NCBI RefSeq assembly: GCF_004664715.2
Contig: NC_051063.1
Coordinates: 116,422,829 to 116,486,828 of the forward strand
Direction: 5' to 3'
DNA from: Peromyscus leucopus
Taxonomy: Eukaryota > Chordata > Mammalia > Rodentia > Cricetidae
Length of the DNA: 64,000 bases
In this document: piece after piece, positions 21,536 through 25,139 of the stretch
Layout of the letters: each line of letters begins with the position of its first letter
Numbering within the stretch: position 1 is the stretch's first letter
The notes under the pieces: generated by a model
Seen by the model: the letters and a program-made list of their open reading frames with translations, nothing else
The model's database searches: none
What the model was told of the DNA's origin: nothing
Made by a program: the position numbers and the translations under genes

Positions 21536-22273
21536 TGCTAACCAATAGCAGATGTTAGTACTTTGTTTTCCTTTCATGCTGAGCTAGTGACCTTTGCATT
21601 TTTTTTCTAATCACCGTACTTTTGAATCACCATTTTGTTTATTCATGAACAGAGGATAAGCTCTGTAAGGGGAGAGACTGTCTATTATTTACATTATCCA
21701 CAGAACTACAAAGAAAATCACATATTTTCTTTTCTCATTTGGCTTTTTTTAAAAAATCTGTTTCAGATTTTCTTTCCTTGTCACATAATCACTACATAGA
21801 AGATTAACTTCAACTTTGTGGTTTCCAAATCATCTAGAAAATACTTCCTTGGGACTCTTCCTTTAAACAAGGAGATCTCAACAAACAGATGTGTGACCAA
21901 ATAACCAAAGTCACTATTGCTCGCTGGAGACACCTAAGTCCTATAAGCCATCCAGCTTCCCCAGCTTGTAACAGCCATAGAGACAAAGCCTGTAAGTATT
22001 AATCATTAAACTCACATTATCTGATCATCCGCTAAGACAGGAGGGACAGGTCACAAGAACAGCTCATGGCCTAGAAAGTGCTTTGTTTTGAAATCACAGG
22101 ATTGTGAAAATCTCTGTTAGGCCCCCAACTTCCTGGGAAGATTATCAACTTACTCTCTGGGAAAATAATTATTGCCTCCTTTCTAACAGAAAATCCAGTC
22201 TAGATTCCAAAAGGAACATAGTATGTAAGACAACCATAAAGCAATAAATAAGAAGGGGCCTGTCTCTCAGAAA

Positions 22274-22407
22274 GCTCTGCATGTGACCCCACTTCTACAA
22301 GCTCTGCATGTGACCTCACTTCTACACGCTCTGCATGTGCCCCACTTCTACAAGCTCTGCATGTGACCACACTTCTACAAGCTCTGCATGTGACCACACT
22401 TCTACAA
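22274..22407 (+). repeat. Five-copy 27-bp minisatellite, intron 5
   Basis: Tandem units start at 22274, 22301, 22328, 22354 and 22381. Each begins GCTCTGCATGTG and ends CACTTCTACA(A/C). The third unit is 26 bp, one base shorter. Confidence 0.95.
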
Positions 22408-23509: not shown

Positions 23510-23820
23510 GGGGGATAGAGAGGGGGCTTAGTGGATAAAGTGCTTTTTATGCAAACACAAGAACCTGAGTTCAGACTGCCAGGACCCACAAGAAAGCTGC
23601 GTGTGGCAACACAAGTCTGTAACCACAGAACTGAGTTGATGGAATCAAGTAGGAGGCTTGCTAGGCAGCCAGCCTGGCTAAAATGGTGAGCACCAGGGTT
23701 GGTGAGAGATGGTGTTTCAAACAATAAGATGAAGTGTGATGAGAAAGACACCTTCAGCAACCTGTGGTCTCCACACACACAGGTGAATTCAACTATACAC
23801 ACACATACATCACACATGCA
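23510..23820 (+). repeat. B4-type SINE hosting the LTR element
   Basis: Composite SINE: ID-like start (GGGGCTTAGTGGATAAAGTGC), B1-like middle (GGAGGCTTGCTAGGCAGCC) and CA-rich tail. The LTR element inserted in this tail at 23820; the tail resumes at 24968. Confidence 0.65.
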
Positions 23821-24163
23821 TGCTGTGGATATCACTCTATATAAATAAACACTGATGGCCAGTGACCAGGCAGGAAGTATAGGCGGGACAAAGAGAGAGG
23901 AGAATTGGGGAAACAGGAAGAAGGAGGAGAGACACTGCAGCCACCGCCAGGAGAAGAGCATGTAGAGACGCCGGTAAGCCACCAGCCACGTGGCAAGCTA
24001 TAGATTTATAAAAATGGGTTAATTTAAGATAAAAGAACAGTTAGCAAGAAGCCTGCCACGGCCATACAGTTTATAAGTGATATAAGCGTCTGAGTGATTA
24101 TTTTATAAGTGGATTGTGGGACTGCGGGGCTTGGGGAACCTGGAGAGAAGCCCTCCAGCAACA
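23821..24163 (+). repeat. 5' LTR of the intron 5 retroelement
   Basis: 343 bp, TG...CA ends, with a TATATAAATAAA string about 17 bp from its start. It is nearly identical to 24625-24967. Confidence 0.92.
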
Positions 24164-24165
24164 AA

Positions 24166-24241
24166 TGGCGCCCAACGTGGGGCACGAACCCATGACCCTG
24201 GGATTAAGAGTCCCATGCTCTACCGACTGAGCTAGCCTGGC
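24166..24241 (-). pseudogene. tRNA-Lys(CTT)-derived sequence copied into the retroelement
   Basis: The plus strand is the reverse complement of a whole tRNA-Lys with CCA: TGG, then acceptor and T arm, the anticodon region (ATTAAGAGT, complement of ACTCTTAAT, anticodon CTT) and the D arm ending GCTAGCCTGGC. Against the Lys-CTT consensus I recall, three of 76 positions differ: T to A opposite A58, C to T opposite position 49 in a CpG, and G to T opposite position 4. The presence of CCA and its position at the primer-binding site show it came from a primer molecule, not from a tRNA gene. A tRNA finder may call it a minus-strand tRNA-Lys pseudogene; the B box is damaged by the A58 change. Confidence 0.88.
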
Positions 24242-24624
24242 CTAACATCAACTGAAGTCTCCAGAAAGCCAATTTGAATGCACCAACAATGCTGAAAAAC
24301 ATTAGGTGACTGTCCAGGCTGCCAGCTGTCTTGGTCTACTTTTGCAAGATTCCCGAAAGTTGCTTGCATCCATCTACCATTTCTCAGGTACCATTATGTT
24401 CCTTCTCAGGTCTTTGATGTGGTTGAAGACTAGATAGTCGTAATTTCCTCAGTTATGATAAAAGATAAGTTAACTATAAAACCTTAAACTCACAAATATA
24501 AGATAGATAGGACATCTTCTTTAATATTGTAACTATAATTCTTGCTCGGTAATTGTTTTGTTATATGTAATTTTACCATGTTAAAGTTAAAACCTTCCTT
24601 TTTAAAAAAAGAAGAAAGGGGAAG

Positions 24625-24967
24625 TGCTGTGGATATCACTCTATATAAATAAACACTGATGGCCAGTGACCAGGCAGGAAGTATAGGCGGGACAAAGAGA
24701 GAGGAGAATTGGGGAAACAGGAAGAAGGAGGAGAGACACTGCAGCCACCGCCAGGAGAAGAGCATGTAGAGACGCCGGTAAGCCACCAGCCACGTGGCAA
24801 GCTATAGATTTATAAAAATGGGTTAATTTAAGATAAAAGAACAGTTAGCAAGAAGCCTGCCACGGCCATACAGTTTATAAGTGATATAAGCGTCTGAGTG
24901 ATTATTTTATAAGTGGATTGTGGGACTGCGGGGCTTGGGGAACCTGGAGAGAAGCCCTCTAGCAACA
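24625..24967 (+). repeat. 3' LTR of the intron 5 retroelement
   Basis: 343 bp, preceded by a polypurine tract and followed by the CATGCA target duplication. I found one base difference from the 5' LTR by eye. Confidence 0.92.
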
Positions 24968-25139
24968 CATGCACATTTACAAAAGCTTCCAAACATAGAA
25001 TAAATTACTATAAGCAATGAGAGATGCAGCATCAATGCACTAGCAGCTCACATTATTTACCAGTTGCTATGCACCAGGATATCAATAATGAAGTCAGCAC
25101 AGGACATTCCTTATTTCTATAATCTCTCAAGTAGGCACA

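Follow-up and report, generated by a model that had tools for sequence, protein, structure and literature searches.

The window analysed here is a stretch of 64,000 nucleotides of the Peromyscus leucopus genome (contig NC_051063.1, positions 116,422,829 to 116,486,828 of the forward strand). An LTR element occupies window positions 23821-24967 and carries the target duplication CATGCA on both sides (Table 1). Its 343-bp LTRs have TG...CA ends with 1 difference in 343, and the paired LTRs, the 6-bp target duplication, the tRNA-Lys primer-binding site (PBS) and the polypurine tract are those of an ERVK/betaretrovirus-type element, possibly of the MYSERV type named in the earlier note. gag-pro-pol is absent from it: only 383 nt lie between the tRNA copy described below and the 3' LTR, which leaves no room for these genes, and the element is thus at most a deletion derivative of an ERVK/betaretrovirus-type element. 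Upstream of it, at window 22272-22407, there is a 27-bp tandem repeat of 5 copies with 93% matches.

Table 1. Features of the LTR element and its flanks, in window coordinates
Feature	Position	Strand	Basis or remark
Left target-site duplication CATGCA	23815..23820	.	sequence
5' LTR, 343 bp, TGCTGTGG...AGCAACA	23821..24163	+	1 difference from the 3' LTR, at 24156
18-nt primer-binding site (ordinary), tRNA-Lys(CTT), includes TGG (CCA complement)	24166..24183	+	sequence
Base opposite tRNA A58 (m1A58 site), A not T; putative misincorporation mark	24184..24184	+	A or C there in 90/101 panel loci
Over-extended copy, the remaining part of tRNA-Lys(CTT) as far as the 5' end (a filler start at 24238 would make it stop at nt 72 = 24237)	24184..24241	+	ARAGORN, Rfam, alignment
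Filler, source not found (from 24238 if the copy ends at nt 72)	24242..24253	+	comparison with relatives
13 nt GAAGTCTCCAGAA, recurring at L039, L076 and L113 in ERV internal sequence	24254..24266	+	probable intermediate template switch
3' internal remnant; whole in L003, L004, L015, L018 and L019, partial in L002 and L020	24267..24624	+	comparison with relatives
Polypurine tract AAAAAAAGAAGAAAGGGGAAG	24604..24624	+	sequence
3' LTR	24625..24967	+	LTR pair alignment
Right target-site duplication CATGCA	24968..24973	.	sequence

A 76-nt stretch complementary to tRNA-Lys(CTT) starts two nucleotides past the 5' LTR; it was called on the minus strand by ARAGORN (24166-24241) and matched by Rfam RF00005 (24169-24241, 49.1 bits). 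It includes the complement of the CCA end (TGG), and CCA is not encoded in eukaryotic tRNA genes. The window therefore holds a product of the kind expected from primer read-through, in which the complement of a mature, CCA-bearing tRNA starts at the PBS and passes nt 58. Compared with a tRNA-Lys(CTT) reference, the copy differs at 3 of 76 positions. The nt 49 difference (24193) is a C to T change within a CpG. The nt 4 difference (24238), G to T, lies in the junction zone and can be read in two ways, either as a change within a full copy or as the start of a filler TGGCC after a copy that ends at nt 72. At nt 58 (24184) the copy has A where T is expected, opposite A58. The earlier note had proposed that the whole tRNA-Lys primer was copied into this element, which these calls and the CCA complement bear out along with the genome survey; it remarked on the G-to-T change at 24238, which it thought might belong to the acceptor template, and the telling base is instead 24184, which it did not mention.

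The genome scanned was the window's own assembly, of 2.475 Gb. A search with a 181-nt query gave 41 rows from the best 40 scored of 1459 candidates, and the first 20 loci fetched all had a non-T base opposite A58 (19 A, 1 C) as against 13 differences in 1423 other cells, in a set that is biased because the query itself carried A. An exact 34-nt pattern, which comprises the PBS plus the T arm with N opposite A58 and begins at the PBS by construction, was present at 116 places in the 2.475-Gb genome, and the same pattern read backwards as a control at 0; the 116 places are thus not due to chance. The window is missing from them because of its nt 49 change, and six of the first 20 loci (L001, L002, L004, L006, L013 and L016) match the 34 nt inexactly and lie outside the panel. 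This panel consists of the 101 distinct loci among 103 of the 116 places that were read, the remaining 13 all having A or C opposite A58; where 150 nt were identical only one locus was kept (L023 and L003, L044 and L018, and L048 and L017 are the same places), and L020 and L046, the tandem partners of L019 and L045, were dropped as rows. The tRNA copies of the panel are 34 to 76 nt long, reaching at least 44 nt in 98 and at least 60 nt in 87 of the 101 loci. The CCA-plus-T-arm patterns of tRNA-Lys(TTT) and tRNA-Pro gave 0 places each in the window's genome, so that the series is described for tRNA-Lys(CTT), and extended patterns for Lys(CTT), Pro and Lys(TTT) gave 0 each in the viral contigs scanned.

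BLAST of the 120 nt preceding each copy sorted the 101 loci into LTR-B/D (58), LTR-A, the type of the window (16), LTR-C (16), another cluster of 2 and nine singles, among which L032 and L054 match LTR-A by BLAST and L061 has LTR-B-like ends by eye. Two tRNA-Lys(CTT) isodecoders occur among the copies, and the downstream sequences fall into 93 acceptor classes in the 101 loci, loci with T runs being kept apart. Between loci the LTRs of the LTR-A type show up to 11.9% difference (17 loci), and the two LTRs of one locus show 0-3 differences in about 344 positions (4 loci). The LTRs closest to those of the window, at L014 and L007, are 0.6% and 0.9% different from them, yet their copies are of the other isodecoder and have other junctions. 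These observations bear on another history, in which one ancestral element gained a tRNA copy with the A change and all others are its mobilised, later deleted descendants. Such a history would agree with the A in most copies, with the tandem copies L019/L020 and L045/L046, and with the one junction common to L031, L063, L068 and L085; but the upstream regions of these last four are 86-93% alike with different flanks, which fits a microhomology hot spot, and a single ancestor accords poorly with two isodecoders behind several types of LTR, with marks of both A and C, with the 93 classes of acceptor, with copy ends piled up at the tRNA 5' end and with near-identical LTRs followed by different tRNA copies. 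We regard it as highly improbable. The earlier note had left the choice between a one-off event and a mobilised subfamily to a search for the junction, and that search points to neither, the structure being recurrent. The tandem pairs themselves, with the same LTR-tRNA structure twice, are 2.2 kb (L019/L020) and 0.8 kb (L045/L046) apart and are apparently tandem duplicates.

An exact pattern of the LTR-B end plus the 18-nt PBS was found at 112 genome places, and we read the first 20 outside the panel among 100 listed of these 112. The tRNA match stops at exactly 18 nt in 10 of the 20, which continue into common ordinary internal sequence; 4 have an inverted LTR-A joined at nt 18, and in the last 6 the tRNA copy goes on beyond 18 nt and contains changes, with A opposite A58 in 4 and T in 2. 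In LTR-A the parental stretch (L006 and L012) agrees with the tRNA for at most 12 nt. In the relatives read, the tRNA stretch is hence not ordinary internal sequence of the parent family, a possibility that the earlier note had raised against its own reading. It had raised another, that a tRNA-derived SINE was inserted independently, and tRNA copies are indeed a common source of SINEs. A SINE of this kind, or a tRNA retrocopy made by a LINE and inserted beside the PBS, might account for the 6 of 101 CCA-bearing copies which have no recognised LTR end upstream, the other 95 having one or matching an LTR. For the panel at large we consider it barely credible, as the copy continues the PBS without a break, the upstream end is common to at least one other locus and in register with the copy in 92 of 101 loci, and L032 and L054 match an LTR by BLAST. 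The six copies (L052, L058, L086, L095, L099 and L106) have 4 A, 1 C and 1 T opposite A58, and may stand behind elements of another sort or represent a different kind of tRNA retrocopy.

We then turn to the base opposite A58. When the 34-nt pattern was restricted to G or T at this position 11 places remained, all with T and none with G, and consequently A or C stands at 105 of the 116 places. In the panel there are 81 A, 9 C, 11 T and 0 G, compared with 24 differences among the 3535 cells that positions 35-76 contribute inside the called extent of each copy. By upstream cluster the counts of A, C and T are 52, 4 and 2 for LTR-B/D (58 loci), 13, 2 and 1 for LTR-A (16 loci), 9, 2 and 5 for LTR-C (16 loci), 1, 0 and 1 for L011 with L053, and 6, 1 and 2 for the nine singletons. 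The wrong base is not universal, T being present at 11 of the 116 exact places and in 2 of the 6 further LTR-B copies; hypomodified tRNA or correct bypass would explain these T-bearing copies. Other differences occur in 5 of the 11 T-type loci as against 17 of the 90 non-T loci, a comparison that is not conclusive (P 0.06). The correct T was commoner in LTR-C (5/16) than in LTR-B/D (2/58).

Could this base come from a variant tRNA gene, or be the parental base that follows the PBS, and not an error of reverse transcriptase (RT)? For two LTR types the mark is ambiguous. The base after the 18-nt PBS is A in 10/10 ordinary LTR-B relatives read, so that an A mark is ambiguous for LTR-B, and the single LTR-C-type parental PBS (L011) has C at the +19 place, so that a C mark is ambiguous for LTR-C. 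The remaining marks speak against such an origin: 9 of 16 LTR-C copies have A, four LTR-B copies have C, and of the 16 LTR-A copies 13 have A, 2 have C and 1 has T in place of the parental G, which is present in L006 (the sole one with an LTR end) and in the same stretch of L012 and L102. As a gene control, the tRNA stretch without TGG gave 3 genome matches, a number that is not a full gene count because genes with T three bases before are excluded. The two gene-type matches both have T opposite A58 and are without CCA, L115 being a tRNA-Lys(CTT) gene near tRNA-Pro, of the other isodecoder than the window's, and L114 a tRNA-Lys-like copy that has one change and otherwise belongs to the window's isodecoder type; the third, L113, is an LTR copy with an altered TGG and A opposite A58. 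Furthermore, the second tRNAs found at L103 and L091 (see below) have A at their own position 58, but the tRNA-Glu of L081 has T. Taken with these counts, a variant gene or a parental base seems quite improbable as the source of the mark. We infer that RT, not later mutation, made the error opposite A58, and the A or C, read from the letters of the copies, suggests that A58 was methylated in the template. At L115, about 100 bases separate the tRNA-Pro(CGG) gene from the tRNA-Lys(CTT) gene, and the two are on opposite strands.

The commonest end of the copies is the 5' end of the tRNA: nt 76 is reached in 37 of 101 loci, or 43 if a change at +73 is allowed. In 11 of the 43 TGG follows directly (P 5e-11 against 1/64), a motif that was noticed before it was counted. 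At L081 the tRNA-Lys copy is followed by a complete tRNA-Glu(CTC), CCA end first, and then by an inverted LTR-B end, and at L103 by most of a tRNA-Glu, also CCA end first (both by ARAGORN and Rfam). At L091 it is followed by a tRNA-Arg-like CCA end identified by letters, presumably of tRNA-Arg(CCT). An exact 31-nt CCA-bearing pattern of tRNA-Glu occurs at 3 genome places, two of which are L081 and L103. The third, L117 (C17:71394780-71394810), is a CCA-bearing tRNA-Glu copy of about 49 nt embedded in ERV-like sequence; the 120 bases that precede it contain no tRNA-Lys copy.

Among the 101 loci the sequence joined to the copy is same-strand sequence common to another locus in 57, such common sequence on the inverted strand in 14, a U5 tail in 4, an inverted U3 tip in 4 plus 1, a second tRNA in 3, and unmatched in 18. 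In four LTR-C loci an inverted stretch of U3, 60 nt long, runs to the LTR terminus, and the flanks beyond it differ. The matching LTR of L051 has 6 nt (CCGGGC) in common with the tRNA end at the join, and that of L055 less, which suggests a snap-back hot spot. Long T runs directly after the tRNA 5' end were seen in 4 of the 43 (L003, L087, L106 and L109) and may be copied A-rich ERV sequence or RNA poly(A). Target duplications of 6 bp were looked for around the whole LTR element in 16 loci and found in 8; the other 8 gave none, and there the stretch read may miss the right end.

In the window, 25 to 29 nt of filler separate the tRNA copy from the common 3' internal sequence that starts at 24267. 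The last 13 nt of it (24254-24266) recur in ERV internal sequence of other loci, and no source of 24242-24253 was found in comparisons with other loci. The earlier note had placed the join at or near a short GGC match, which we rejected: the filler intervenes, and the sequence of the relatives just before the common part has no GGC there. The filler suggests that more than one template switch took place at this join.

Thus, combined together, these results make it very probable that the copies arose by recurrent read-through of the primer past m1A58 with misincorporation, followed by run-off and movement of the over-long end to another template. RT would run through m1A58, the normal stop of plus-strand strong-stop synthesis, leaving a wrong base there, and would copy on to the tRNA 5' end and run off, the primer presumably not having been removed before plus-strand synthesis. 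The growing end would then likely switch to the internal minus strand, deleting the intervening sequence, or alternatively to its own U3 (snap-back), to a U5 end or to the CCA end of a second tRNA. Products ending in an LTR tip could still integrate, and the target duplications would be accounted for if LTR tips had restored the ends. What the earlier note had proposed for the window, read-through of the whole primer and joining of the over-extended end elsewhere, agrees well with the LTR types, the isodecoders, the clustering at the tRNA 5' end, the A58 base and the second tRNAs; its GGC join and its choice between a one-off event and a mobilised subfamily were given up.

After the same read-through, the over-extended viral DNA could have been joined by the end-joining machinery of the host in place of template switching by RT. 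Two ends appear as if ligated both in the head-to-head joins to inverted LTR ends (L008, L062 and L081) and in the inverted-strand joins of 14 of the 101 loci. However, a second tRNA can be copied from the CCA end onwards (L081 and L103, and by letters L091) only by RT acting on RNA, and the target duplications in 8 of 16 loci indicate that integrase acted on finished ends. We therefore favour template switching by RT, from which host end joining, a tentative and rather doubtful alternative, is not fully separated. The loci probably form an archive of single-molecule crossings of m1A58 by ancient RT, in which about nine in ten left an error (dA far more often than dC, and dG never in 116) and end-to-end jumps, including jumps to CCA ends of other tRNAs, then produced LTR-tRNA inserts as a class. 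On this likely reading, germline DNA would keep a legible trace of how tRNA was modified in the past and how RT bypassed the modification.

Reading through the primer is commonly regarded as a dead end in reverse transcription. Large deletions from strand-transfer errors were reportedly obtained by Pulsinelli and Temin in 1991, in a vector system within one replication round, and there as here mis-transfer during strand transfer is said to remove internal sequence. According to PMC13191261, m1A58 is a strong stop for plus-strand DNA of HIV-1 and unmodified tRNA is copied to its 5' end. The over-extended plus-strand strong-stop DNA which HIV-1 makes on unmodified tRNA or in TRMT6-mutant cells resembles our copies in passing A58, with m1A58 as the stop, but it is described there as a replication intermediate, whereas the copies here are integrated germline products with a wrong base opposite A58 (PMC13191261). 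According to PMC4787781, mismatches at an m1A followed by G, as A58 is here, are low in C signal, i.e. have little G in the cDNA, and the mark opposite A58 fits this signature. DNA in which a tRNA is copied and joined to retroviral DNA, as here, is recounted in PMC12220202: a tRNA-Gly lying between the LTRs in a cloned circle of MLV DNA (Colicelli and Goff 1986), pieces of tRNA-Asp/Glu in HIV-1 variants (Konstantinova 2006) and a tRNA-Gly, with CCA present, beside an HIV provirus which is likewise deleted. Unlike ours, each of these MLV and HIV cases is a single laboratory finding and involves a tRNA that is not the normal primer, and 'm1A' occurs 0 times in the main text of PMC12220202. The mysTR-related non-autonomous ERVK of the deer mouse, for which recombination has been suggested, have a conserved stretch before the 3' LTR and otherwise variable internal regions like the elements here (PMC10089650); 'tRNA' occurs 0 times in the main text of that paper. 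In the literature searched, with most subscription papers outside it, we found neither a germline series of such copies nor an m1A58 error in proviral DNA, and absence from print is not claimed.

Likely read-through products at more than 100 places of one genome amount to an apparent record of an RNA modification in DNA. With sequence alone it could be tested how retroviral RT behaved at m1A58 in the germline, and how often a failed second transfer makes non-autonomous elements. The PBS followed by a non-T base at +19 and by tRNA sequence serves as a search signature for any genome.

A minor class of joins was noticed beside these copies. At L120, L124, L128 and L133, which are 4 of the 20 places with an LTR-B end and PBS, the PBS runs directly into the inverted LTR-A end (GGGGCGCCATTTG...), and this looks like head-to-head joining of two plus-strand ends through a palindromic PBS overlap.
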